Positions 7,700 to 27,828 of a DNA stretch of 64,000 nucleotides are shown here, piece by piece. This DNA comes from Fibrobacter sp. UWH6. Its GTDB lineage: Bacteria; Fibrobacterota; Fibrobacteria; Fibrobacterales; Fibrobacteraceae. Below the pieces are notes generated by a model, which made no database searches, had not been told where the DNA came from, and was given only the letters and a program-made list of their open reading frames with translations. Each line of letters opens with the position of its first letter. Position 1 is the stretch's first letter. The position numbers and the translations under genes are program-made. Where the stretch lies: NCBI RefSeq assembly GCF_900142465.1, contig NZ_FRAX01000002.1, positions 186,001 to 250,000 of the forward strand, in the 5' to 3' direction.

Positions 7700-7723
7700 G
7701 GGTCTCTCGCGAGACCCCTTTTT
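7700..7723 (+). terminator. Terminator after the MATE gene
   Basis: GGGTCTC-TCGC-GAGACCC (7700-7717) followed by CTTTTTT. It lies between convergent genes and, preceded by AAAA on the plus strand, may also stop transcripts from the minus-strand patatin gene. Confidence 0.85.
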
Positions 7724-7735
7724 TACGTCATACAT

Positions 7736-10183
7736 TTAGAAAGAATAATTGCCGACACGGATAAAGTAACTGTAATCCGACAGATTCCTCAACTCTTTAA
7801 ACGAATCCTTGTCAACAATTCTATTCAATCCCATATACAGGACCATTGACTTGTAGACGAACCTTACCGCAGGTTCAACCACAAACTTATCTACATCAAG
7901 TTCTGCCAAGGGGCTGTCTTCAAAGTCATGGTAATAAGCAGCAAAAATCCAGGCACCTAGATGTTTTCCATGGACTCCACCATTAGCTCGCAACATACCA
8001 TATTCGTGGGAAGACAACTCACGGTTATACCATTCCGTCGACCAAGGGGTTGCCTGAGCATGCAGACGGTAAGCCAAATCCAGCGGGCCGCATTCGAACG
8101 ACTTGGGGGAAACATAGCCGAAACCATCTTCGTGATAGCGTTCAATTCCACCGGCAACACCAATACCCAGCGATACGTTGGGGTGAGGCGAATAGACCAG
8201 GCGACCATCAACAAGAATCTTCCAATAGATCGGCACAAGGTCCATGATGTCAAATCGATAACCGATAGATTCCATACCAGCCATCACATCAACACCGGCA
8301 CCATCTTCAGCAAACCACCCAGATTCACCAGACGATTCATAAGAGTAATGAAGCATGGGAGAAACCGGGTATGTTACGACTTCACCATTTCTATAATGCA
8401 AGGTGTCCAGCTCATAGGTCCTGCTTCCAAAAAGAAATTCTGCAGCAATCTTCTGGCGAGAATCTATTTCGTAATACATGGACAAGTTCAGATCCATACG
8501 TTCTTCATGGCCGACTTTTAAATTCCAGGGAAGACTGTTGTAATATGACCGCAGCGGTTGCAATCTAAGGAAAGCGAAATCCAGAGAAACGCCCCAACCG
8601 AGTCCCAACAATTTGGAAATATCAAGACGAGGCATCACACCATAGGAATTTCCACCCCAGAATCCAGCCAGAGTCAATTGCAGTTCCACATGATCAACAT
8701 AGCGAACAGAGCCTTCGGCATAGGCTTGGGGGCCAACTACGTTCGAGCCAAAACCGCCCACAGCAAGATCAAAAGTCGGATGCGATACCGTCTCTACAAA
8801 CAGATCCCCCGTTGCACCCATAAAGAAATCCAACGAGTCATAAGCCGGATTTTTCAGAATAGCTCCGGCAAAATCACGAGGGCCAGCCAAACCCGTATCC
8901 GCCTCGTTCCAGTAAGACCGCACAGCTGCATGAATAGACGAACGTAAACTGTCTAGCGACGGAGAAAAACGGAACCAGGATTTTGCAGCCGGTCTACGTC
9001 CATTCCCATAATCCACCTTGCGGGAGGACAACGCCGGGTGAGAAGTACGTCGCTGTTCTACGGCAGAAAAACCCGCCTGAATCCAGGCATTACGAGAAGT
9101 GTCAGAAATGGCATGGGAGCGAATTATCACCCCCGGCTGATTGGACAGCTGCGCAGATTCCATCTTACGAAGCAACCGATTCCGCACATCTCCGACAGGG
9201 GGATTTCTAAGAGGATCCGCAACAACGATAATAGACAATTCATCTAACCGATCTTCTGCAGGCAAGGCGTAAAACGGACAAAGTTCACCGGAAGCCCGCT
9301 TAACAGAAACATCACCATCGTTCCACCACAACGGCAGGGACTTTATGATTTCATCAACAGAACCCGAACGAAATTCCGCCGTGGCGTTCTCATCGCAACC
9401 CACCAGCGAAAACGGGCGTGCATATTGAATCGGCTGTCGATACAGACTTTCCTGAAACCTCAACTTGGCCAAAGCTCGTCCAGAAGGAACGGAGTCTCTC
9501 ACAAGGGGCTTTCTATTTTGAACAAGGTGACCGTCATCAGTCCTTGAAACAGAAAATCTTTTTCTCAACGAAGGAATTCCATCTTCCGACAAGGCCCATT
9601 CAAAAGCGTCACCACCTTCCTGCGAAAGGCCGGCGGTTTCCGCAGTCAAATTACGTCCCACATAAGGAGCGATGGTAGAGTCCAGCATGATTCTCTGGAT
9701 TTCATCTGGAGACACCCCCTTCGCCCACAGGGCACCAACCCAGGCGCCCCATGACGTAGCCACGACAGAATCCACAGGAATTCCAAATTCTTCTATAGCA
9801 TACAGAACACCTAGATGATACCAGGGAGAATGATCTCCACCTCCTAAATACAATACATTCTTGACCGTTTTAGGCAACGCCGGAGTCACCACTGCAGAAG
9901 AATCATTCACAATGGAGGCAGACGAAACAGAATCAGACGAAACCGGGCCCGCCAAAGCCGAATCCGTCGCAACGGAATCCATGACCGCGGAACCACGGGA
10001 AACAGAATCTACGGAAGAGGAATCCGTAAGAGCCATTTCCTGTGTTTCATCAAAAGGTAGCACGCCTTCCTGAGCGAAAGCTTCCGCTCCACCCCAAAAG
10101 GACAACGACAAAAAGGCGGCAATAAATGCCGCCCCGTTTAAAGAGCAGAATGCGTTAAGCCATGCGCGCAGGGTTAGCCGCAT
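7736..10183 (-). CDS. Patatin-like phospholipase with C-terminal outer-membrane barrel
   Basis: 815 residues. An N-terminal signal segment (about 1-38) is followed by a low-complexity Asp/Ser/Val stretch (50-98) and a patatin-like alpha/beta domain: glycine-rich oxyanion loop YLGGGDHSPWYHLGVL (112-127), nucleophile elbow ATSWG (Ser144; first Gly of GxSxG replaced by Ala), and a possible dyad Asp in WWNDGD. The C-terminal half looks like a beta-barrel ending in Phe, as in surface-antigen/BamA-like domains of PlpD-type proteins. It is probably an outer-membrane lipase or esterase. The start at 10183 lies inside the preceding gene but follows a near-perfect SD (AGAGGAGG, 8 bp away). It is last in a six-gene operon with an ABC exporter and two degenerate PilT-like ATPases. 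Confidence 0.85.
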   Translation of the reverse strand: MRLTLRAWLNAFCSLNGAAFIAAFLSLSFWGGAEAFAQEGVLPFDETQEMALTDSSSVDSVSRGSAVMDSVATDSALAGPVSSDSVSSASIVNDSSAVVTPALPKTVKNVLYLGGGDHSPWYHLGVLYAIEEFGIPVDSVVATSWGAWVGALWAKGVSPDEIQRIMLDSTIAPYVGRNLTAETAGLSQEGGDAFEWALSEDGIPSLRKRFSVSRTDDGHLVQNRKPLVRDSVPSGRALAKLRFQESLYRQPIQYARPFSLVGCDENATAEFRSGSVDEIIKSLPLWWNDGDVSVKRASGELCPFYALPAEDRLDELSIIVVADPLRNPPVGDVRNRLLRKMESAQLSNQPGVIIRSHAISDTSRNAWIQAGFSAVEQRRTSHPALSSRKVDYGNGRRPAAKSWFRFSPSLDSLRSSIHAAVRSYWNEADTGLAGPRDFAGAILKNPAYDSLDFFMGATGDLFVETVSHPTFDLAVGGFGSNVVGPQAYAEGSVRYVDHVELQLTLAGFWGGNSYGVMPRLDISKLLGLGWGVSLDFAFLRLQPLRSYYNSLPWNLKVGHEERMDLNLSMYYEIDSRQKIAAEFLFGSRTYELDTLHYRNGEVVTYPVSPMLHYSYESSGESGWFAEDGAGVDVMAGMESIGYRFDIMDLVPIYWKILVDGRLVYSPHPNVSLGIGVAGGIERYHEDGFGYVSPKSFECGPLDLAYRLHAQATPWSTEWYNRELSSHEYGMLRANGGVHGKHLGAWIFAAYYHDFEDSPLAELDVDKFVVEPAVRFVYKSMVLYMGLNRIVDKDSFKELRNLSDYSYFIRVGNYSF

Positions 10184-11159
10184 ACTTAGCAGCCTCCTCT
10201 TGCGTTACATAACCGGCTTTTACTAATTCCACAAGGCAGTCATCCATCAACAACATGCCGTCGGCGGCAGAGGCCGCAATAATCGAGGGCAGGGTATAAT
10301 GTTCGCCATTACGGATTCTTGATGCCACGTTCTGAGTACCGTAAAGAATTTCCCATGCAGGAACAGCACCATTACCTTCTGCGGCAGGAACAAGACGTTG
10401 CACGACAACGGCCTTGAGAACCGAAGCCAACATGTTACGAGCCAACCCGCGATTTTCCGGAGTTTCCGAAGAAAGCAGAGCCTCCAGCACGCCAACCGTA
10501 TTGCCCGCAGAAACATTAAGGACAACCAGGGCGCCGGCTTCCGCAGCTTTCAGAATAGGAATCAAGGACATGCCTTCAAAATCCCCAAGCCAAATCAAAT
10601 CAGTGCCGCTACGAAGTGCCTGGGCAATCTTGCTCTGGACATCACCTCGGGAGTCTTCAAGCACAAGGCTGTCGCCTCTTTTTACCTTCAGCTCTTCCTT
10701 GGGATTCAAAAGGCTAACACGCAAAATTTTGGATTGGCACAAGGCAGACACATAAGCGGTAGCTGTAGTTGTCTTGCCGCTACAGGCGGGACCGCCAAAC
10801 ACAACAAGACCGCCACTCAAGCTGAGAAGGCTAGACAGCATTTCAGGAACGCCAAGGGCAGAAAAATCCGGGCAATCCTCAAGAACGGGGCGGAACACCG
10901 CCGTATTCCCGAGAGCGGCACGGCAGTAGCGAACTCTCCAGCGGGAATTGCACCAGGGGCCACCAAGAATCATTCCGGACTCTCCGTCCATAGATCCCAA
11001 AAATTTTCTAAGCGTTCCAAATTCCGTTGCCGGAGCATCGGGAATGGCACAAACCTTGCCAGCCAGGCGAACCGCAGCAGGAGCACCTTCGGTAACAATC
11101 ACTTCACTAGCTCCGACCTGCAGAGCGTAATCCAACAGAGAATCAATTTCTGTAGCCAT
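10155..11159 (-). CDS. Degenerate PilT-like ATPase (short paralogue)
   Basis: 334 residues with PilT architecture: an N-terminal PAS-like part (about 1-105) and a RecA-like core. Walker A is intact (GGPACSGKT, 122-130, Lys129), but other catalytic boxes are changed relative to true PilT: no EDPIE Asp box, Walker B GEMRD replaced by GDFEG, and HTN of the His box replaced by SAG. It may bind nucleotide with weak or no turnover. ATG at 11159 is chosen because GGAGG lies 6 bp upstream; a GTG one codon earlier is too close. It follows its longer paralogue by 12 bp and overlaps the patatin gene by 29 bp. A canonical PilT is encoded separately at 26761-27828. Confidence 0.8.
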   Translation of the reverse strand: MATEIDSLLDYALQVGASEVIVTEGAPAAVRLAGKVCAIPDAPATEFGTLRKFLGSMDGESGMILGGPWCNSRWRVRYCRAALGNTAVFRPVLEDCPDFSALGVPEMLSSLLSLSGGLVVFGGPACSGKTTTATAYVSALCQSKILRVSLLNPKEELKVKRGDSLVLEDSRGDVQSKIAQALRSGTDLIWLGDFEGMSLIPILKAAEAGALVVLNVSAGNTVGVLEALLSSETPENRGLARNMLASVLKAVVVQRLVPAAEGNGAVPAWEILYGTQNVASRIRNGEHYTLPSIIAASAADGMLLMDDCLVELVKAGYVTQEEAAKYAANPARMA

Positions 11160-11171
11160 CACAAACCTCCA

Positions 11172-12782
11172 TTAATTTGTCGGACGATAAGAAGCGAAAC
11201 GACGACTATCGCAAGCACGTTTCCAAGCTTCTGCACCTTCAATGTAACCAGATTCAACGCACTTCTGCAAGGAATCATCCAAGGTAATACCCTGATCCTT
11301 CTGGCTCGAGATTGCCGCAGCCACCTGAGACACATCACCACGGCGTAACAAGTTGGCCATGGGAGAAGTCATCTTCATCGCTTCTGCAGCCAGGATCAAG
11401 CCCTGATTCTGGACGATGGGAATCAAGTGCTGAACGATAACACCCTTAAGCTGGTCAGCCAGAGTATTGGCAAAAGCAGTACGGTTGCTTTCGGGAACAG
11501 AAGACAGTAATCGAGAAAGCAGGGCGTGTACATTATTGCCATCCGTTACGGCAAACACCAGAGCGCCAGAATTAGAGGCACGCAACAGCAAGTCCAGTTC
11601 CTCGGCTGTTTCCAGGTGATCAAATAAAATTACATCGGCACCGCTGGCCATGGCGAGTTCAACGCCTTCAATACCAGAACGCACATGGAGTCCCACTTCA
11701 CGTTGAGCGATGGCACCACGAGGATTCTCCAGGAGACGTTCAATGGGCTTTTCAATCGTCTGGATGTATACATCACGGTTTGCGGCAATAGTCGACGCAA
11801 AAGTCGTCATGGTCGTGGAACGACCACTTGCTGCAGGGCCCGCAATCAAGACAAGACCGCTTGTCAAATCCGCAAACTGGTTACAGAATGCCGGCAGATA
11901 CAAATTCTCAAGGCTTGCAACTTCCGAGGGAATCACGCGAATGGAAATGCTAGGCGTGGTTCCGTTCCAGGTAACCGTAATGCGGGCTCGACCAGCACCC
12001 GCAAGACCAATAGTCTTGCTGAAGTTCTTGCCGACAATAATCTTGTAACCGTCAGAGAAACCCACAACAGCTTCATTCAGGCGGTCGTTGATGCGATCCA
12101 GATCCAGAACAGCTTCCGACGCAACGAACAGCCCACCGGATTGACGCATCACAACGGGACGGTTTGCAAACAGGTAAATATCCGTCGCATTAAACTTTCG
12201 GGCGAACGCAATCAGCTGAGACAAATTCGTCATTGGACGGATGGTCTCGGGAGCTTCAACTGCCTTACCCTCTCCAGTAGCCACGGCAAAACGAGCCGGC
12301 AACTTGCCATCATCCTCATCTTCGGCATTTTCATCATATTCTGTCTGAACCTGCACCGTGCTGATACTAGTAGCCTCAAGCCCCGTCACAGTCTCCACTT
12401 CCATATTGGTCGTAGAAGTCGTTTCTCCGTAAGGATTATTGCCTTCAATCTGAAGACCACCGGCATCATCCGAGGCAGAAGCTGAAGATTCACCAGGCTT
12501 CGAAGCCATAGTCCGCATAGACGGTGCGGAAACCTTCGCCGAGGTTGAAGATGCGGGAGCTTCCGCAGCAGGCGCAGCAGCATTTTCGGCAGCAGCCTTG
12601 GCTTCCAAATTCTTGACGAAGGCCAAAAGTTTGATGTACACAGGAGGCTGTAATACCCCGGCATCAACCAATACCTGGCCAATATCCTTCTTGTCTGTAA
12701 TTTCGCCCCAATGGGCCTGAATCTGAGCCTCGGACACCACCTTATTGTGAACGAGGACCTTTGCCATATACTGATTTCTCAT
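11172..12782 (-). CDS. Degenerate PilT/PilB-like ATPase with N-terminal extension and Arg in Walker A
   Basis: 536 residues: a short helical N-domain resembling T2SSE_N/MshEN (about 6-60), a long Ala/Ser/Glu-rich linker (60-180), a PilT-like PAS domain (about 185-300) and a RecA-like core. Walker A reads GPAASGRS (315-322), so the catalytic Lys is Arg321. The Asp box is EKPIE instead of EDPIE, Walker B is LFDHLE rather than GEMRD, and the His box has no His. I infer a pseudo-ATPase, perhaps a structural or regulatory partner of the next gene's product. It overlaps the ABC permease stop by 4 bp (ATGA) and has GAGGGAT upstream. Compared with canonical PilT (about 350 residues) it is much longer at the N-terminus. 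Confidence 0.8.
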   Translation of the reverse strand: MRNQYMAKVLVHNKVVSEAQIQAHWGEITDKKDIGQVLVDAGVLQPPVYIKLLAFVKNLEAKAAAENAAAPAAEAPASSTSAKVSAPSMRTMASKPGESSASASDDAGGLQIEGNNPYGETTSTTNMEVETVTGLEATSISTVQVQTEYDENAEDEDDGKLPARFAVATGEGKAVEAPETIRPMTNLSQLIAFARKFNATDIYLFANRPVVMRQSGGLFVASEAVLDLDRINDRLNEAVVGFSDGYKIIVGKNFSKTIGLAGAGRARITVTWNGTTPSISIRVIPSEVASLENLYLPAFCNQFADLTSGLVLIAGPAASGRSTTMTTFASTIAANRDVYIQTIEKPIERLLENPRGAIAQREVGLHVRSGIEGVELAMASGADVILFDHLETAEELDLLLRASNSGALVFAVTDGNNVHALLSRLLSSVPESNRTAFANTLADQLKGVIVQHLIPIVQNQGLILAAEAMKMTSPMANLLRRGDVSQVAAAISSQKDQGITLDDSLQKCVESGYIEGAEAWKRACDSRRFASYRPTN

Positions 12783-13588
12783 AGGAAATCCCTCCGGCTA
12801 AACCACCAGCTAGCGATGGCCAAGAAAACACCCACATAGCCAACGGCGTACACAGAATTCCAGAATACATACATATCCGGAAGAGCCACGCCATGAACCA
12901 CGTAACTTGTAACATTATAACGATAAAGGCCCGGGAAAACCGCGTGAATGACAACGGCAGCCTTTTCGAAAACTGCAGTAGAAGCCCCACTCATCTCGCC
13001 CATACGGCTAGCAAAGCGGACCTGTTCCAAAAGCTGATTGCTCAAGTGTCCCGCAAAATAGACACCCAGGGTAAACAGGGCGCTAAGCACAGTGCTGCTA
13101 AAGCTGCTGAACAACAAGGCCACCGCAATGACCACAGCCATCTCGCAGAAAATCAGGTAGATCGCAGTAAGCAGACTCAAAGTCGGCTCAGACCCGGTAG
13201 CCAGAAGCATCAGATAATAAATGCAAGTCAGGAGAGCCAGATGCACAGCCACCACAGCCAGCAGCCCAAAGTACTTGCCAACAATAAAGGAAGCTCGACT
13301 AATGGGCTTAGACAACAAGGTCAACACCGTACGTCCCTTGATTTCCTTCTGCACCAGGCTGATACCCACAAAAATGGAAATCAGGAGACCAGAAAGGCTC
13401 ATAACAGAAAGGGTTGTAGACTTGATCACGTAAGAGCGGTCAAAAACAGACCATTCACCAAGCACAATGCTGAACAAAGTGAGCGCGATAGCCAAGAAAC
13501 CGATATTATAAAGAATCTTGTCGCGAATGGATTCGCGGAAGGTATTGAGGGCAATAACGCCAATATGCTTAAACGTCTGCACGGGCAA
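12779..13588 (-). CDS. ABC-2 type transporter permease
   Basis: 269-residue inner-membrane protein with about six hydrophobic segments and an N-terminal cytoplasmic start FKHIGVIALNTFRESIRDK, typical of ABC-2/NatB-like permeases (exporters, including GldF-type proteins). The segment VQKEIKGRTVLTLLSKPISRASFIVGKY is the usual cytosolic coupling region. It overlaps the ATPase gene by 20 bp upstream and the pilT-like gene by 4 bp downstream, so all are coupled. Substrate is unknown. Confidence 0.9.
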   Translation of the reverse strand: MPVQTFKHIGVIALNTFRESIRDKILYNIGFLAIALTLFSIVLGEWSVFDRSYVIKSTTLSVMSLSGLLISIFVGISLVQKEIKGRTVLTLLSKPISRASFIVGKYFGLLAVVAVHLALLTCIYYLMLLATGSEPTLSLLTAIYLIFCEMAVVIAVALLFSSFSSTVLSALFTLGVYFAGHLSNQLLEQVRFASRMGEMSGASTAVFEKAAVVIHAVFPGLYRYNVTSYVVHGVALPDMYVFWNSVYAVGYVGVFLAIASWWFSRRDFL

Positions 13589-14480
13589 TCTCCTCTGTCA
13601 AAATATCTTCAAGACTGGGGCGCTTGTGTTCCATGCGTTCCACAGCGATTCCCTTTTCTAGGCAGTAGCGCAAGAGGCGATCACGAGCGGCCTCATCAGC
13701 ACAAATGCATTCCTGAGGATGACCTGCAGGGGTTACGCCCTCGGGCAACTCCGACTGGAGGATACCCTGACGGGTACGAACGTGGTATTCAACGCCGCAA
13801 GATTCCGTAATCTCGTCTACGGTACCTTCACGAACAATCTTACCATCTACAATCATGGCCACACGATGGCTGATACTTTCCACATCGCTGAGCAAGTGGC
13901 TGGAGTAGAAAATCGTTACCCCATCCTGGTTCAGCTGCTGGATTGCACCACGAACGTCACGACGGCCCATAGGATCGAGGCCGCTCATAGGTTCGTCCAG
14001 AATCAAAAGTTTGGGCTTACCGAGAATAGCCTGGGCAATTCCTACGCGCTGCATCATACCCTTTGAATATGAACGGAGGCGGCGGTCAATCCAGTCCTTG
14101 TCGGCATGCAAAAGTTCCAAGGCCCACTGAATACGCTTATCCAGTTCAACCCCATCCAGACCAACAAGCTTGCCATAGAACTTCAGAAGTTCTCGTCCAG
14201 TCAAGTAATCATAAAAATACGGCTGTTCAGGAGAATAGCCCAAAAAGGTACGACTCTTTACATCGCGGGGGCTAATACCGTTCACCAGCACCGTTCCGGA
14301 ATCAAAATTCAAAAGACCGGTCAGCACCTTGATGGTGGTAGACTTTCCGGCACCGTTAGGGCCAATAAAACCATAAATTTGACCCGGTTCCACAGAAAAG
14401 CTCACGTCCTTAAGGGCGAGCTTCGGTTTCATCAAGAAACCACTGCGGTAGGTCTTGTGCAAATTCTCAATTTTTATCAT
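13569..14480 (-). CDS. ABC transporter ATP-binding protein
   Basis: 303 residues. Walker A GPNGAGKST, Q-loop region LGYSPEQPYFYDYLTGRE, a variant signature YSKGMMQRVG in place of LSGGQ, Walker B LLILDEPMSGLDP and an H-loop (SSHLLSD) are all visible, so it should hydrolyse ATP. A C-terminal extension of about 70 residues is seen in drug and NatA-like exporters. It pairs with the overlapping ABC-2 permease. The start at 14480 is 12 bp after the stop of the small membrane protein. Exported substrate is unknown. Confidence 0.94.
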   Translation of the reverse strand: MIKIENLHKTYRSGFLMKPKLALKDVSFSVEPGQIYGFIGPNGAGKSTTIKVLTGLLNFDSGTVLVNGISPRDVKSRTFLGYSPEQPYFYDYLTGRELLKFYGKLVGLDGVELDKRIQWALELLHADKDWIDRRLRSYSKGMMQRVGIAQAILGKPKLLILDEPMSGLDPMGRRDVRGAIQQLNQDGVTIFYSSHLLSDVESISHRVAMIVDGKIVREGTVDEITESCGVEYHVRTRQGILQSELPEGVTPAGHPQECICADEAARDRLLRYCLEKGIAVERMEHKRPSLEDILTEEIARADV

Positions 14481-14492
14481 AAAAATCTCAAT

Positions 14493-14756
14493 CTAGTCTC
14501 GGGGACCAAAAGCCTTTTCTTCGGCCTCTTCAATCATGCGGCGACGTCGCTCCGCCTTTTCCTTCTTATTGATGACGAAATAAATGGCAGCACCAACAAG
14601 ATATACCACAACGCCAGAATAGAAAATAGGATTGATCGACTGACCTTCAAGGCCAGGAAACAAATTCAAAATTACACTATGCCCAAACAGGCTTAGCAGT
14701 ACAAACACGATGCCAAGTCCACGAAGTACATAGGTCGCAATCACAATTTTTCGCAT
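14493..14756 (-). CDS. Small membrane protein, two helices and a charged tail
   Basis: 87 residues with two predicted membrane helices (about 5-30 and 42-62) and a highly charged C-terminal tail (KKEKAERRRRMIEEAEEKAF), likely an alpha-helix in the cytoplasm. I do not recognise a family. GAGG precedes the ATG. It is first in the operon that continues with the ABC ATPase 12 bp downstream, suggesting a role linked to that exporter. Confidence 0.7.
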   Translation of the reverse strand: MRKIVIATYVLRGLGIVFVLLSLFGHSVILNLFPGLEGQSINPIFYSGVVVYLVGAAIYFVINKKEKAERRRRMIEEAEEKAFGPRD

Positions 14757-14885: not shown

Positions 14886-14920
14886 ATAAAAATCCCCGGT
14901 CTGCCGCGAGACCGGGGATT
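14886..14920 (-). terminator. Rho-independent terminator of the AspT/YidE-type transporter gene
   Basis: A perfect 12-bp stem, AATCCCCGGTCT with AGACCGGGGATT (14891-14920), has a 6-nt loop and is followed on the minus strand by TTTTTA. Confidence 0.88.
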
Positions 14921-16667: not shown

Positions 16668-17198
16668 CTACTTCTTGATGCAACGAACAGAGTAGGCGAT
16701 ACTCTTGCTGAAATGTTCGTAGGAGATAGAATCATCCTTGATTCGAACCATAGTTCCGCGGGCATCGTCATAAGAATCTGCAGTCCAGAAGCTGGCGCTG
16801 ACACCTTCATCGGCAAACTTACCGTTACTAGCATAGCGATAACCGGCATTCAAGACATTAAGAACCTTAAGATCAACACCTTCAAAATCTGCCTGAGACG
16901 GCAAAGCCCAACCATCGGGACAAATTGTATTGGCGGACTCATAAGGATAGAGACGTCCATACTTTTCGCAGTTTTCATGATTGCTTCCATAGCAGAAGCT
17001 AGAATCAGAATCAAAGCGAGCCAGGTTTTCTGCCATCCAGACCTTATTACCAGTCTTTACGGTCTTGTAAGTTTTTTCCTGGCAAGTAAGAGTATTTGCA
17101 GACTCATTATAGTTGCAGGCATTGGCCTTGTCACAGGCGGTGAAGGTAAAGGCGGCAAAGGCTACAACGGCCATGGCAGCAACAAACCTGAGCTTCAT
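16668..17198 (-). CDS. FISUMP-domain lipoprotein
   Basis: 176 residues. The signal peptide ends in a lipobox (FTAC, Cys22), so it should be a lipoprotein. The rest is a single Fibrobacter succinogenes major paralogous domain (TIGR02145): YKTVKTGNKVWMAENL, YGRLYPYESA, CPDGWALPSQADF, and the C-terminal AYSVRCIKK. Function of the family is unknown; it is abundant on Fibrobacter surfaces by inference from its signals. AAGGAGA precedes the ATG. A TTGGCG / TAAAAT pair (17234-17261) may be its promoter. Confidence 0.9.
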   Translation of the reverse strand: MKLRFVAAMAVVAFAAFTFTACDKANACNYNESANTLTCQEKTYKTVKTGNKVWMAENLARFDSDSSFCYGSNHENCEKYGRLYPYESANTICPDGWALPSQADFEGVDLKVLNVLNAGYRYASNGKFADEGVSASFWTADSYDDARGTMVRIKDDSISYEHFSKSIAYSVRCIKK

Positions 17199-18409: not shown

Positions 18410-19165
18410 TTAACCCTTAGTATGAATCGCAGCAGAGAATTCAGCAAGGAGTTTCGGGTCCTGGACCTTTTCCCACAGGGTGCCCGTCACGATGATATTT
18501 GCACCGGCAGCAACACGGACAGCAGCCGTTTGCGGATCCTTAATACCGCCACCAGTAATGATGGTCATTTCGGTTGCCTTGCGGGTGTAGGCAATATGTT
18601 CTACAGGAACGGGCTCTTCGGCGCCACTACCTGCTTCCAGATAGACATAGCGCATGCCCATGAGTTCTGCGGCAATGGAATTCACCATACTGAGCTTAGG
18701 CTTGTTAGCAGGTACCGGCATGGTATTGCTGATATATTCAACTGTAGTACGCTTGCCACTATTGATCAACTGATAAGCCGTAGGAATGGCTTCCATGTTC
18801 AGGGCACGAACCAAGGCACCACCACGAACCTGTTCATCGATCAGGTAGTTGGGATTGCGGCCACTAACCAAGGTCATGAACAGCATGGCATCAAAACCAG
18901 GAACAACTTGAGAAGCGCCACCCGGGAACAGGACAACGGGAAGATCCACATTAGCCTTAAGAGCAGCCACCTGTTTCGGCAAGGTGAAATTACCCAAATA
19001 GGAGCCGCCTACCAGCAGCAGGTCTGCGCCATTTTCAGCAGCCATGGCACCAGCCTTCACAAAGGCAGTCTCGTCTGATGTATCAGGATCCAGCAGCACA
19101 GCAAACAACGCACCGCGCTTTTCGATTTCTGCATTCAAACGAGCTTCAGTCTTACCGATTTTCAT
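18410..19165 (-). CDS. Geranylgeranylglyceryl/heptaprenylglyceryl phosphate synthase family (group II)
   Basis: 251-residue TIM-barrel enzyme of the GGGPS/PcrB family, which joins a polyprenyl diphosphate to sn-glycerol-1-phosphate through an ether bond. Visible motifs: Mg-binding DPD (26-28), glycerol-phosphate-binding YLEAGSGA (175-182), ITGGGI (203-208) and the C-terminal GANIIVTGT. The NPNYLID segment and length match group II enzymes known from archaea and Bacteroidetes-like bacteria. Prenyl length cannot be read by eye. No partner (G1P dehydrogenase, DGGGP synthase) lies in the window. It stands alone between convergent LysR and GH43. Confidence 0.92.
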   Translation of the reverse strand: MKIGKTEARLNAEIEKRGALFAVLLDPDTSDETAFVKAGAMAAENGADLLLVGGSYLGNFTLPKQVAALKANVDLPVVLFPGGASQVVPGFDAMLFMTLVSGRNPNYLIDEQVRGGALVRALNMEAIPTAYQLINSGKRTTVEYISNTMPVPANKPKLSMVNSIAAELMGMRYVYLEAGSGAEEPVPVEHIAYTRKATEMTIITGGGIKDPQTAAVRVAAGANIIVTGTLWEKVQDPKLLAEFSAAIHTKG

Positions 19166-21465: not shown

Positions 21466-24108
21466 TTAGCCCAGCTTTGCACGGATCCAGTTGTTGGCGT
21501 CCTTGATAGCTGCGGAAATCTTTTCAGGTTCACGGGTACCGGCCTGAGCACGGTCCGGACGGCCACCGCCCTTACCGTTACATGCTGCGGCAAGATCACG
21601 GACCATGTCGCCAGCCTTGATGCCCTTAGCCTGAACATCCTTGCCCACGATAACGGCGATGGAACCAGCACCGTTTACCTTGTTAGCAATGACAGCCACG
21701 GCACCCTTGTCCAGCTTGTTCTGGATACCGTCCAGGAGTTCCTTGTACTTATCTTCCGGCATATCGAATTCGCGAACGTAGAGCATGACACCCATGACGT
21801 CGAGGCCGCCATTCAGAACGTCGCCAGCGATCATTGTTGCCAGTTCCAGCTTCACGGACTGGAGAGCCTTTTCAAGGGACTGTGTCTTTTCGAAGGACTG
21901 CTGGATACGATCCAGAACTTCGGCATCCTTACAACGGAGACGATCGCGGAGAGCATTTACAATCTGAGCACCAGCGCGAAGCATAGTCATAGCACCGCGG
22001 CCAGTAACAGCTTCGATACGGCGGACACCAGCAGAAACGCTGGATTCAGAAATGATCTTTACCATGCCGATGTTACCGGAATTGGAAACATGCAAGCCAC
22101 CGCAAAGTTCCTTGGAGAATTCTTCACCGCTTACGCCCATCTTCACAACGCGTACGGTATCGCCGTACTTTTCGCCGAAGAGAGCCATAGCGCCAGAAGC
22201 CTTAGCTTCGTCCACGCCCATGACGTCGGTGTGAACCGGCAGGCATTCCATGATCTTTGCGTTCACGATGTCTTCGACCTTCTGAATTTCTTCAGCGGTC
22301 ATGCCATTGAAATGAGTAAAGTCAAAGCGGAGGGAATCCGGAGTTACCAAGCTACCCTGCTGCTGTACGTGAGTGCCCAGCACTTCGCGGAGAGCGGCCT
22401 GAACCAAGTGAGTAGCGGAGTGGTTGCGACGGATGTCCATGCGACGTTCGTTGTCGACGGTAGCCATGAACACACCACCCATGGTCTGTTCGTTAGCTTC
22501 ACCCTTCACCACCTTGGCGCGGCAGAGAGCGGTGTCGTTCACCTTGACAGTATCAAATACGCTCAGTTCCAGGTCGGCAGAAACCAGCATACCCTTGTCG
22601 CCAACCTGGCCACCCATTTCGGCGTAGAACGGGGAAGTTTCAAGAACGATGGAAAGAACGCCCTTGTCTTCGCGGTAGCGGACAACCTTGGTTTCGCAGG
22701 CGGACAGTTCGTAGCCTACGAAGTTGGTAGAAGCTTCGGAATACTGAGTCCAGCCTTCGGTACCCATGGTGTTGATGCCCTGCTTCATGTTGGCGCGGGC
22801 ACGTTCCTTCTGTTCTTCCATGCACTTTTCAAAACCGGCTTCATCAATGGTGAGGCCCTTTTCTTCGGCGAGGATGCCAGTGAGGTCCGGCGGGAAGCCG
22901 TAGGTATCGTAAAGCACGAAGACCTTGTCACCCGGCACAACCTTGGCAGAACCCATTTCGGTAACGATGGCTTCGAAACGTTCGAGACCTGCATCCAGAG
23001 TCTTGATGAAGCGGTCTTCTTCGCTCTTGATCACTTCGGTCACGAAAGCCTGACGCTGACGGATTTCGGGGAAGGCTTCGCCCATGGTATCAGCAAGAAC
23101 CTGGACCAGCTTGTAAATGAAAGCTTCCTTCTGGCCGAGCAGGCGAGCAAAACGGCTTGCACGGCGGAGGATACGACGGAGCACATAGCCACGACCTTCG
23201 TTAGAGGGCAGAGCGCCATCAGCAATAGCGAAGGAGACTGCGCGGATGTGGTCGGCAATCACGCGGTGGGGGGTGCCGTTTTCGTCGTCAGTGTAAGGTA
23301 CGCCGGAAAGTTCGGCAACCTTGGAAATAATCGGGGTGAACACGTCGGTGTCGTAGTTGCTGCGCTTGCCCTGGAGGATAGCGCAGATACGTTCGAAGCC
23401 CATACCGGTATCAACGTTCTTGGCCTTCAGCGGAATGAGGGAGCCGTCGCTGATACGTTCATACTGCATGAACACATTGTTCCAGATTTCGATGTAGCGG
23501 TCGTTTTCGCCGTTCACGCCCAGGATAGGATCCTTGAAGGTTTCCATCTGGGTAGCAAGGTCGCCGCGGTCGTAATGAATTTCGGAGCAGGGGCCACAAG
23601 GACCGGTGTCGCCCATTTCCCAGAAATTGGAGTGAGCGTCGAAGCGCATGATGCGGTCATCGGGAAGACCGGAAACGTCCTTCCAGATCTGCCATGCTTC
23701 GTCATCATCCTGATAGACAGTTGCAAAGAGACGTTCCTTGGGAAGCTTCCAGACTTCGGTCAAGAGTTCCCATGCCCAGGCGATAGCTTCCTTCTTGTAG
23801 TAGTCGCCGAAGGACCAGTTGCCCAGCATTTCGAAGAAGGTGTGGTGGTAGTTGTCGCGACCCACAACGTCCAGGTCGTTATGCTTACCGGAAACGCGGA
23901 GGCACTTCTGGCTGTTGCATGCACGCTTCCAGCCCTTGGGATTGTCACCCAGGAAGATGGCCTTGAACTGGTTCATACCAGCATTGGTGAACATCAAGGT
24001 GGGGTCATCGTGAGGAACCACGGGAGAGCTACGGACGAACAGATGATCCTTGCTCTCGAAGAACTTAATAAAAGATTCGCGCACCTGCGCAGAAGTCATA
24101 GTAGGCAT
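21466..24108 (-). CDS. alaS: Alanyl-tRNA synthetase
   Basis: 880 residues, normal for bacterial AlaRS. It charges tRNA-Ala in the cytoplasm. Domains: class II catalytic core (about 1-250; LFVRSSPVVPHDDPTLMFTNAGM), tRNA-recognition helices (250-460), the editing domain with zinc ligands HSATH and CGGLH, and a C-Ala domain with GKGGGRPDRAQAG near the end. The start at 24108 follows AAGGGA by 6 bp. Single-gene unit. Confidence 0.98.
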   Translation of the reverse strand: MPTMTSAQVRESFIKFFESKDHLFVRSSPVVPHDDPTLMFTNAGMNQFKAIFLGDNPKGWKRACNSQKCLRVSGKHNDLDVVGRDNYHHTFFEMLGNWSFGDYYKKEAIAWAWELLTEVWKLPKERLFATVYQDDDEAWQIWKDVSGLPDDRIMRFDAHSNFWEMGDTGPCGPCSEIHYDRGDLATQMETFKDPILGVNGENDRYIEIWNNVFMQYERISDGSLIPLKAKNVDTGMGFERICAILQGKRSNYDTDVFTPIISKVAELSGVPYTDDENGTPHRVIADHIRAVSFAIADGALPSNEGRGYVLRRILRRASRFARLLGQKEAFIYKLVQVLADTMGEAFPEIRQRQAFVTEVIKSEEDRFIKTLDAGLERFEAIVTEMGSAKVVPGDKVFVLYDTYGFPPDLTGILAEEKGLTIDEAGFEKCMEEQKERARANMKQGINTMGTEGWTQYSEASTNFVGYELSACETKVVRYREDKGVLSIVLETSPFYAEMGGQVGDKGMLVSADLELSVFDTVKVNDTALCRAKVVKGEANEQTMGGVFMATVDNERRMDIRRNHSATHLVQAALREVLGTHVQQQGSLVTPDSLRFDFTHFNGMTAEEIQKVEDIVNAKIMECLPVHTDVMGVDEAKASGAMALFGEKYGDTVRVVKMGVSGEEFSKELCGGLHVSNSGNIGMVKIISESSVSAGVRRIEAVTGRGAMTMLRAGAQIVNALRDRLRCKDAEVLDRIQQSFEKTQSLEKALQSVKLELATMIAGDVLNGGLDVMGVMLYVREFDMPEDKYKELLDGIQNKLDKGAVAVIANKVNGAGSIAVIVGKDVQAKGIKAGDMVRDLAAACNGKGGGRPDRAQAGTREPEKISAAIKDANNWIRAKLG

Positions 24109-25551: not shown

Positions 25552-26754
25552 TCAGCCCTTAACAGAGTCAGACATAGAGAACATGGGCATGTACATTGCA
25601 ATAAGCAAGCCACCCACGGCACCACCCAGGAACACGATGATCAAGGGTTCCATCATGCCCACCACGCCATCCACTGCGGCATCCACTTCTTCGTCGTAGA
25701 AGTCTGCAAGTTTCAGGAGCATGCCGCCAAGGTTACCGGTCTTTTCACCCACGCCCGTCATCTGAATCACCATGGGCGGGAACAGGTTGCATTCGGCCAT
25801 AGGTTCCGCAATGGATTTACCACCAGCAATACCGATGGAAATTCGACCGATGGCACGTTCCACAACTTTATTCGAAACAGTAGAGGCCACAACCTTCAAA
25901 GAATCCATCACAGACACACCAGCATTAAGCAAGGTGCCCAAAGTTCTAGCAAAGCTTGCAGTCGTGGACTTGATCTGAAGGTCTCCTAGCTTAGGAATTT
26001 TAAGCATCAGACCATCCCAGGCATACTTCGCCTTAGGAACTTTCATCGCCAACTTATAAGCCACAATGAGAATGACCACAAAAATACCCAGGAGCAAACC
26101 ATTATCGCGCAAGAAGTCAGAAATGTTCATCACCACCTGAGTCGGAGCAGGAAGTTCAGCATCAAGAGCGGCGAACTGAGCGGCGAAGGTGGGCACCACG
26201 AAAGTCATAAGTGCAATCACCACCAAGATACCCACGATGATCAACATGACCGGGTACGTCAAGGCTTTCTTCACCTTACGCTTCAGACGTTCGCCGTTTT
26301 CAAGAGTTTCGGCCAAACGGGCAAGAATGCCATCCAGAATACCACCAGCTTCACCTGCGGCCACCATGTTGGTATACAAGGTCGTAAAAACCTTAGGGTG
26401 CTGCGTCAGCGCATCAGCCAAGGAAGAACCACCGTTAATCGACTGAGTCACCTTATGGATCACAGTTTTCAATTCAGGATTTTCGCACTGTTCTTCCAAA
26501 ATGTTCAAGCACTGAAGCATAGGAAGACCGGCAGAACTCATAGACGAGAACATACGGGTAAAACGAGAAATATCGGCGGGCTTAATGCCAGAACCAATAT
26601 TGATCTTGATTTCCATGGGCTTCTTTTTCAAGCTCTCGATAATCAAGCGGCGACGCATCAAGAGGGCTTCAGCTTCTGCCTTATCCTTCGCCTCAATGGA
26701 GCCTTCAAATTTATTACCGGCGCTGTTGGTCGCCTTATACAGGAATTCTGCCAT
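25552..26754 (-). CDS. pilC: Type IV pilus/type II secretion inner-membrane platform protein (PilC/GspF)
   Basis: 400 residues with two T2SSF repeats (about 60-190 and 265-390), each followed by membrane helices; the first is AGLPMLQCLNILEEQ and the second AGVSVMDSLKVVAST. This is the polytopic platform on which PilB and PilT act. It lies 6 bp after pilT, so the two are one operon. No pilB, pilM-Q or pilin gene is in the window, so the rest of the machine must be elsewhere. Confidence 0.95.
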   Translation of the reverse strand: MAEFLYKATNSAGNKFEGSIEAKDKAEAEALLMRRRLIIESLKKKPMEIKINIGSGIKPADISRFTRMFSSMSSAGLPMLQCLNILEEQCENPELKTVIHKVTQSINGGSSLADALTQHPKVFTTLYTNMVAAGEAGGILDGILARLAETLENGERLKRKVKKALTYPVMLIIVGILVVIALMTFVVPTFAAQFAALDAELPAPTQVVMNISDFLRDNGLLLGIFVVILIVAYKLAMKVPKAKYAWDGLMLKIPKLGDLQIKSTTASFARTLGTLLNAGVSVMDSLKVVASTVSNKVVERAIGRISIGIAGGKSIAEPMAECNLFPPMVIQMTGVGEKTGNLGGMLLKLADFYDEEVDAAVDGVVGMMEPLIIVFLGGAVGGLLIAMYMPMFSMSDSVKG

Positions 26755-26760
26755 AACTTA

Positions 26761-27828
26761 CTACACTCCTTCCTTCACAAACAGCTGTTCCAGCTGATCC
26801 GGGCTGGGGGAACGAGACAAAGCTTCAAAGCGGTCCACCTTACGATTCTTAACCAAGTCGCAAAGACACATGTTCATGGTATTCATACCGAACTTCTGAC
26901 CAATTTCAATCATGGATTCAATCTGGTGAACCTTGTCGTCACGAATCAGTGAACGGATACCCGGTGTGACGTTCATGATTTCGTATGCCATTACACGGCC
27001 ACCGCCAATCTTCGGTACCAAGGTCTGACAAACAACGCCCTGAAGCACAAAGGAAAGCTGAGTTCGAACGGTCTGCTGTTCACCCTTGGGGAAAGCATCC
27101 ACCACACGGTTAATGGTCTGCACACAGGAGTTGGTATGCAGGGTTGCGAAAGCCAAATGGCCCGTTTCAGCAATGGTCAATGCAGCACGAATAGTTTCAA
27201 GGTCACGCATTTCGCCGATAAGCACCACGTCAGGGTCCTGACGGAGAGCCATCTTAAGTGCGCTAGCAAAGCTTACGGTATCACTTCCCACTTCGCGCTG
27301 GTTAATCATACAGTTCTGATGCTTGTGCAAAAATTCGATAGGATCTTCCACAGTCAAAATGTGATCGTGACGTTCCTTGTTAATCTTATCGATCATTGCA
27401 GCCAGGGTAGTAGACTTACCAGAACCCGTAGCACCGGTCACCAGCACAAGGCCAGAGGGACGCGTCGTAAATTCAGCCAGAATTTTCGGAAGGCCAAGAT
27501 CCTTAAAGGTCTTGATTTCCAGCGGAATAATACGCAAGGCAATCGCCACGCAACCACGCTGCAAATACGCATTGGCACGGAAACGAGCCAAGTTCGCAAT
27601 ACCAAAGGAAAAGTCGCATTCCTTGTTCTGTTCAAAAGACTTCTTCTGACCTTCGTTCATCAAACTATAGGTCATTCGCATAGTTTCATCCGGTTTCAGC
27701 TTGGTTTCACCAATAGCCGTAAGATTACCATGCAGACGAATAAGAGGAGGAGCTCCTGCTGTCAAATGCAAGTCAGAGCCACCACGTTTCACCATTTCAG
27801 CGAGAAGATCTTGAATATTGTATGCCAT
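26761..27828 (-). CDS. pilT: Canonical type IV pilus retraction ATPase PilT
   Basis: 355 residues with all catalytic boxes: Walker A TGATGSGKST (131-140), Asp box EDPIE (161-165), Walker B GEMRD (205-209) and His box HTN (231-233). This hexameric cytoplasmic ATPase powers pilus retraction (twitching, adhesion). ATG at 27828 is taken as start; a TTG two codons earlier is unlikely. It is divergent from the TlpA-like gene and heads the pilT-pilC operon. It is the reference against which the two degenerate paralogues at 10155-12782 stand out. Confidence 0.96.
   Translation of the reverse strand: MAYNIQDLLAEMVKRGGSDLHLTAGAPPLIRLHGNLTAIGETKLKPDETMRMTYSLMNEGQKKSFEQNKECDFSFGIANLARFRANAYLQRGCVAIALRIIPLEIKTFKDLGLPKILAEFTTRPSGLVLVTGATGSGKSTTLAAMIDKINKERHDHILTVEDPIEFLHKHQNCMINQREVGSDTVSFASALKMALRQDPDVVLIGEMRDLETIRAALTIAETGHLAFATLHTNSCVQTINRVVDAFPKGEQQTVRTQLSFVLQGVVCQTLVPKIGGGRVMAYEIMNVTPGIRSLIRDDKVHQIESMIEIGQKFGMNTMNMCLCDLVKNRKVDRFEALSRSPSPDQLEQLFVKEGV

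Follow-up and report, generated by a model that had tools for sequence, protein, structure and literature searches.

We describe here a six-gene operon of Fibrobacter sp. UWH6 that combines an ATP-binding cassette (ABC) transporter, two PilT-like proteins and an outer-membrane patatin protein. It lies in a 64,000-nucleotide stretch of contig NZ_FRAX01000002.1 (positions 186,001 to 250,000 of the forward strand), hereafter called the window; the genome comprises 3.92 Mb in 50 contigs. When the open reading frames (ORFs) of the window were re-read, all six genes listed in the original prediction were found on the minus strand, from 14756 to 7736, with the overlaps and gaps reported there, the permease start being more likely a GTG (see below). 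The genes are the following, with the supporting profile match and its E-value in brackets.

14493..14756, minus strand: g1, small protein of 87 residues encoded at the head of the operon, with two membrane stretches as judged from its sequence (ORF)
13569..14480, minus strand: g2, ABC ATPase, 303 residues (ABC_tran, 2.5e-29)
12779..13588, minus strand: g3, ABC-2 permease, 269 residues from the TTG at 13588 (ABC2_membrane_2, 3.2e-8)
11172..12782, minus strand: g4, long PilT-like pseudo-ATPase, 536 residues (T2SSE, PF00437, 9.7e-13)
10155..11159, minus strand: g5, short PilT-like pseudo-ATPase, 334 residues, ATG at 11159 (T2SSE, 3.4e-11)
7736..10183, minus strand: g6, patatin-POTRA-Omp85 outer-membrane protein, 815 residues (Patatin, 4.5e-9)

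The junctions are tight: a 12-bp gap separates g1 from g2, g2 and g3 overlap by 20 bp (TTG start) or 14 bp (GTG start), g3 and g4 share a 4-bp ATGA, g4 and g5 are 12 bp apart, and g5 and g6 overlap by 29 bp. The small first protein matched no Pfam or NCBIfam family above cut-off. The ABC ATPase is the sole intact ATPase among the six: both GPNGAGKST and LLILDEP are present, which we take to be its Walker A and Walker B motifs, respectively, and its best NCBIfam matches, drrA (194 bits) and GldA (183 bits), both remain under cut-off. The nearest solved structure for the permease, NosY, was matched with an E-value of 0.02 and is not informative.

A scan of a genome contig collection with the patatin alignment yielded 67 named loci, all of them labelled Fibrobacter, Fibrobacteraceae, Fibrobacterales, Fibrobacteria or Fibrobacteres. 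The complete six-gene order was found in 61 of the 67; the remaining six, which were scored as misses, begin too close to a contig end. Locus L156 holds the operon of F. intestinalis ATCC 43854. A homologue of the small first gene precedes the ATPase gene in 61/67 loci as well. The junctions are also preserved, since the permease and long PilT-like genes overlap by 4 bp in 57 of the 61 complete loci and the short PilT-like and patatin genes by 29 bp in 38. The ATPase and permease genes overlap by 14 bp in 57 of the 61, and for this reason the comparison with relatives makes the GTG at 13582 a more likely permease start than the TTG at 13588. In the phylum genome set, a match to the long PilT-like protein with an E-value of 1e-100 or better was counted by hand in 93 of the 111 genomes of the window's family. 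Gene order, whose conservation the original prediction had singled out for checking, is thus not confined to this strain, and the unit appears to be a conserved operon that, as had been proposed, spans the cytoplasm, the inner membrane and the outer membrane. Because the neighbours outside it vary between genomes (alaS-pcrB, an epimerase gene, a gyrase/topoisomerase A gene and others), we consider the unit to be bounded by g1 and g6. Its most divergent holders are genus g8 (locus L078) and genus g3 (L052), where the labels denote genera and not the genes listed above.

In other lineages the ABC genes, the PilT pair and the patatin gene were found as three separate blocks, as judged from profiles whose E-value cut-offs left out some true members. 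In family f4, a patatin-like gene is found in the vicinity of the ABC pair; because its profile match covers only the patatin part (positions 45-163 of 773) and a LigT gene on the opposite strand stands between it and the ABC pair at locus L080, we take these genes as weak evidence of an older ABC–patatin link.

The two PilT-like proteins were predicted to be pseudo-ATPases, and this description was borne out. Both match T2SSE (E-values of 1e-12 and 3e-11, rounded) and neither reaches the curated cut-off of TIGR01420 pilT_fam (185.8 bits for the long protein and 140.9 bits for the short one, against 319.1). The model of the long protein comprises a helical N-terminal domain, a low-confidence linker (residues 67-160) and a PilT core (pLDDT 79), and Foldseek aligned it with PilT4 (6ojy_A, TM-score on the target 0.92, root-mean-square deviation 2.2), while the PilT fold of the short protein was recognized by sequence (2gsz, E-value 9e-27). 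The motor motifs are another matter. In the long protein, the Walker A Lys is replaced by Arg in 64 of the 65 rows with letters at that position (67 rows in all) and kept in one, the position of the Walker B Glu is occupied by His in 54 rows and never by Glu, and the His box is lost, with one row carrying a His at its second place. The short protein retains the Walker A Lys in 66/67 rows; at the Walker B Glu position it has Asp (59), Asn (7) or Gly (1), never Glu, and it has no His box. In the window genome, both canonical PilT genes retain Walker A, the Walker B Glu and the His box. The N-terminal part of the long protein gave a sub-threshold MshEN match (NF053729, 13.2 bits against a cut-off of 38, residues 9-51), and MshEN was not among the listed 25 of the 48 families matched by 34 long PilT-like members. 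Structure alignments covered 34 of the 67 long PilT-like rows and 42 of the 68 patatin rows, window included.

In genus g8 (L078:7648-9952), both PilT-like proteins lack Walker A and the six-gene order is intact, so that ATP binding looks dispensable there; their end branches measure 3.8 and 4.2 changes per site in the PilT-like trees, which were built from 45 or 34 selected rows. In genus g3 (L052), the short protein lacks the Walker A Lys and the operon is retained. The loss of motor motifs does not reflect decay, as judged from substitution rates in 18 disjoint pairs drawn from 76 close pairs: the median dN/dS was 0.066 for the long and 0.061 for the short PilT-like protein, compared with 0.031 for the ABC ATPase, 0.032 for the permease and 0.109 for the patatin protein. 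These low values indicate that both PilT-like proteins are functioning proteins under purifying selection. The pair is like PilT/PilU in having the PilT fold over the core and in consisting of adjoining paralogues, but differs in that the long protein has lost the Walker A Lys and both proteins the Glu of Walker B and the His box, in scores below the TIGR01420 cut-off, in the extra N-terminal domain and linker of the long protein and in the presence of canonical PilT genes besides. An active PilT/PilU pair was rejected as a candidate since the motifs are missing. Separately, other Fibrobacterota classes have long and short PilT-like genes side by side (L047-L056, e.g. L048:338-3077); in these pairs the motor motifs, including Walker A and the Glu of Walker B, are mostly intact, and the genes lie away from ABC and patatin genes.

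The patatin protein carries a signal sequence (read by eye), and its AlphaFold model (pLDDT 81.6) shows a low-confidence linker up to residue ~103, a patatin domain (~106-388), a POTRA domain (~402-470) and a barrel (470-812) whose 16 strands fall between residues 470 and 810. The patatin domain (106-388) matched PlpD (5fqu) with a Z-score of 19.9 and 24% identity; the barrel region matched TamA (8us1, Z 22.2) and also BamA, with Z-scores of ~20-22. Residues 404-812 of the model align with TamA 191-577, and we take the POTRA domain to be included in the extent of this alignment. The window copy ends in Phe, and a C-terminal F, W or Y is found in 65 of 68 patatin proteins. Because the barrel matches TamA/BamA and the patatin domain matches PlpD, the protein is, as modelled, a PlpD-like PL-Omp85 protein, in agreement with the patatin barrel of the original prediction.

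The patatin active site is only half kept. The nucleophile, Ser144, is retained in 67/68 proteins in the setting [GA]-x-S-W-G. By contrast, the position of the catalytic Asp (S298-G299-E300 in the window copy) is occupied by Ser in 57 of the 68 proteins, by Asn in 6 and by Asp in one. This position was set by spacing and by MAFFT alignment to L227, a canonical patatin of the same genome; since a second canonical patatin, L225, placed its DGG elsewhere, the exact position of the Asp is less certain than the absence of the Asp motif. Indeed, no DG[GA] occurs between the Ser and the POTRA domain in 67/68 proteins, and in the lone exception it sits elsewhere. The missing motif rules against an active phospholipase, and the sequence-based loss of the Asp argues against simple phospholipase-driven remodelling. 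In PlpD, the patatin domain is described as periplasmic and reliant on a Ser-Asp dyad (PMC11116518). Compared with the type Vd proteins PlpD and FplA, the patatin protein thus has the same patatin domain, POTRA, 16-strand Omp85 barrel and nucleophilic Ser, but lacks the catalytic Asp motif, has conserved Cys263 and Cys302 and is encoded with an ABC exporter and PilT-like proteins. The two cysteines (kept in 63/68 and 62/68 proteins, respectively) could form a periplasmic disulfide by the former active site. Note also that the patatin genes of three genomes (G122, G079 and G148) each contain one in-frame stop in the matched stretch, due to assembly error or decay.

What connects this operon to pili is the distribution and neighbourhood of its ABC genes across the phylum. 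A permease match was found in 144 of 167 Fibrobacterota genomes, as a single copy in each except for one genome with a split gene. In classes other than that of the window, the ABC pair is followed by a gene for a membrane-anchored TPR-like protein of ~230 residues in 20/20 loci, the first six members of which are mutually homologous, and a prepilin gene lies on the same strand downstream of the ABC-TPR genes in 8 of these 20 (PF07963 was confirmed in 6/6 prepilins tested). In family f4, the TPR gene is separated from the ABC pair and adjoins one or two prepilin genes in 6/6 loci; a tandem prepilin pair stands beside it at L232, L233, L242, L244 and L245. The same pattern identified a prepilin in none of the 65 other scanned loci, a contrast for which Fisher's test gave 9e-10, the loci not being independent.

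Co-occurrence points the same way. Outside the window's family, presence of the TPR gene and of the ABC genes agreed in 53 of 56 genomes (36 with both, 17 with neither, 2 with ABC only, 1 with TPR only), the TPR gene being present in 36/38 ABC-bearing and 1/18 ABC-lacking genomes. PilM was weak or absent in 15 of 23 ABC-lacking genomes versus 7 of 144 ABC-bearing ones, 'weak' meaning a best E-value above 1e-14, a threshold chosen after the values were seen. An independent-pairs test on an AlaS marker tree (61 of the 167 genomes) found 12 pairs, of which 6.8 changed the same way and 0.6 the other (median p 0.07, or 0.04 with the traits exchanged). A search for PilB (TIGR02538) gave matches in 162/167 genomes and does not separate the ATPases of the type IV pilus (T4P) and the type II secretion system (T2SS).

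The surroundings of the operon in the window include two pilus-type genes ~11 kb upstream of it and two terminator-like hairpins at its borders:

25555..26754, minus strand: PilC-like platform gene (T2SSF, PF00482, 1.7e-63)
26812..27822, minus strand: canonical PilT-like gene beside the PilC-like gene (Walker A, Walker B and His box intact)
7700..7717, plus strand: terminator-like hairpin between a convergent MatE gene and g6 (consensus match only)
14894..14911, minus strand: terminator-like hairpin ahead of g1, following the adjacent Asp-Al_Ex permease gene (consensus match only)

The scan of the region gave 21 such hairpins versus 10.7 expected. One of them, followed by a T run (minus strand, 10113-10135), lies within the 5' part of the patatin gene and is a possible attenuator, chance matches being expected in such a scan. 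A consensus scan for promoters was uninformative, with 6 promoter-like sites versus 7.3 expected. A pcrB-like gene (18413-19165) and alaS (21469-24108) lie 4-9 kb upstream of the operon, and alaS together with a ~250-residue gene immediately precedes it in L038, L039, L042 and L046. A short protein encoded at 16668-17198 presumably resembles the Fib_succ_major paralogous-domain protein.

The gene neighbourhoods found elsewhere in the phylum recall Myxococcus xanthus. There pilA, pilG, pilH and pilI form an unbroken row, and PilGHI, which motility by means of pili requires, is regarded as essential for the translocation of pilin (PMC5544727, PMC3724824), experimental support for this role being described as thin (PMC6060248). 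Like PilGHI, the Fibrobacterota genes co-encode an ABC ATPase and a permease of about 250-270 residues; in other classes a third gene follows the pair, with a prepilin gene as well in 8 of 20 loci, an arrangement like pilA-pilG-pilH-pilI, and the pair tends to vanish together with PilM. Unlike PilGHI, the Fibrobacteraceae pair is away from pilin genes, in an operon with two pseudo-PilTs and a PL-Omp85 protein. This likeness, drawn from gene neighbourhood, makes the statement of the original prediction that this is not a known pilus operon too strong, because its ABC part resembles PilGHI in that respect elsewhere in the phylum. Of the three functions guessed there (lipid transport, surface remodelling or a motility-linked device), the last is the best if read as pilus-linked, given the prepilin neighbours in other classes and the tendency of the ABC pair to be lost with PilM.

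We therefore propose, giving it about an even chance, that the operon codes for a device accessory to the Fibrobacteraceae T4P system and built on a PilGHI-type ABC core, probably a helper for the pili with which these fibre-digesting gut bacteria grip plant fibre. A PilGHI-type transporter, old in the phylum, would have taken in the PilT pair and the PL-Omp85 gene in the Fibrobacteraceae, resulting in a single translationally coupled operon. The ABC core (small membrane protein, ATPase and permease), as the only intact engine, would move some substrate or act conformationally at the inner membrane. The two PilT-derived proteins, recruited into the operon and deprived of motor chemistry, would most likely assemble into a ring or hetero-ring of PilT shape. 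Bound to the pilus platform or to the transporter, this ring would serve at the pilus base as scaffold, brake or sensor with no ATP turnover. The patatin domain, periplasmic by analogy with PlpD, would be part of an outer-membrane foot; with its Ser kept and its catalytic Asp lost, lipid binding or docking is its most likely function, in place of cleavage. The pilus role in the Fibrobacteraceae, physical contact between the six gene products and the action as scaffold or brake are inferred from the evidence above; the parallel loss of motifs from the PilT-like proteins and the patatin protein in genera g3 and g8 fits a joint structural role.

Several observations weigh against this proposal. 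The pilus link, which rests on gene neighbourhood and co-occurrence, is supported, not proven. Prepilin adjacency is seen in lineages without the six-gene form: neither the window nor the Fibrobacteraceae loci examined have a prepilin or pilA neighbour of the ABC pair, the TPR homologue of Fibrobacteraceae/f2 has no adjoining prepilin (0/7 loci), and 12 of the 20 ABC loci of other classes show no prepilin within the stretch fetched. As for PilM, eight ABC-lacking genomes have a good match and seven ABC-bearing ones do not, and when genomes were restricted to those of at least 85% completeness, the independent pairs fell to 3.8 against 0 of 7 (median p 0.125, not significant). For an origin of the two PilT-like proteins in the PilT pairs that other classes keep intact, the p-AU was 0.33, neither orthology nor a sister relationship of g4 and g5 being rejected. 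In genus g4 (L086, L087 and L097), the ABC genes are kept, the PilT pair is absent and a patatin relative lies elsewhere. Finally, the proximity of canonical pilT-pilC genes, which speaks for a pilus link, was seen in two genomes only: in L040 they come directly after the patatin gene, and in the window they are ~11 kb away. L038 has a nearby T2SSE gene of uncertain system.

Other explanations make different sense of the same genes. The operon could serve envelope lipid or lipoprotein export unrelated to pili, the ABC transporter exporting a lipid-linked substrate, the PL-Omp85 protein receiving it and the PilT-like proteins acting as cytosolic regulators. The many substrates of ABC2_membrane_2 exporters leave room for this, as does the patatin-like gene near the ABC pair in family f4, and PL-Omp85 proteins are reported to act on phospholipids in Pseudomonas (PMC11116518). 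We nevertheless find it doubtful, as it does not account for the prepilin genes adjoining the ABC pair elsewhere or for its disappearance with PilM, leaves two PilT-fold partners unexplained, and calls on a patatin domain whose lost Asp makes lipid cleavage unlikely. It is less likely still that the PilT-like proteins are slow but real ATPases, the short one binding ATP and using an Asp in place of the Walker B Glu, and the long one activating it within a hetero-hexamer, as an active second retraction motor. PilU, described as a PilT-dependent ATPase (PMC6762196), offers a precedent, and the Walker A Lys (66/67) and the Asp (59/67) of the short protein are compatible with it; on the other hand, the Asn or Gly found instead in 8/67 short proteins, the lack of a His box, the Arg in 64/65 long proteins and the retention of the operon in genus g8 (both Walker A motifs lost) and genus g3 (Lys of the short protein lost) are difficult to reconcile with catalysis.

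The six genes might also be a transcript of convenience, sharing a promoter and performing unrelated tasks. The separate occurrence of the ABC, PilT-pair and patatin blocks in other lineages would suit this, yet order and overlaps are kept in 61/67 loci across several genera, and the joint motif losses of genera g3 and g8 involve both the PilT-like proteins and the patatin domain; we consider it distinctly improbable. Scarcely more credit can be given to a bolder version of our own proposal, in which the motor has been swapped: the ABC transporter would be the sole engine, and the PilT pair an ATP-independent ring coupling it to the pilus platform and, via the dead patatin-Omp85 protein, to the outer membrane. 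If true, it would be an ABC-driven trans-envelope machine for non-motile cells holding or pulling plant fibre, but we regard this as very unlikely. A GldA-GldF-GldG-like module for gliding or surface export has the least to recommend it and was rejected: the generic similarity of ATPase and permease (183 bits with the GldA model for the former, 21.8 bits with GldF for the latter) is far under the equivalog cut-offs of the TIGR03522/TIGR03518 pair (402.6 for GldA and 288.5 for GldF), drrA scores higher, the operon has no GldG-like gene and Fibrobacter is described as non-motile (PMC4704652, PMC3079729).

For the biology of Fibrobacter, the operon bears on how cells described as non-motile hold on to their substrate. 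The sources differ on pili: the S85 genome paper reports no complete pilus gene set (PMC3079729), whereas PMC4704652 counts a full T4P set, and pilin proteins are implicated in the grip on cellulose (PMC3079729, PMC4704652). No description of the operon was found in the accessible portions of the literature on Fibrobacter with patatin or PilT, or of F. succinogenes papers. In addition, it touches on the long-standing question of what PilGHI does, and it would be, in our judgement, a rare instance in which selection has preserved secretion-type hexameric ATPases despite the loss of catalysis. As a family-wide unit, it offers a concrete, deletable target for studying how Fibrobacter cells adhere.

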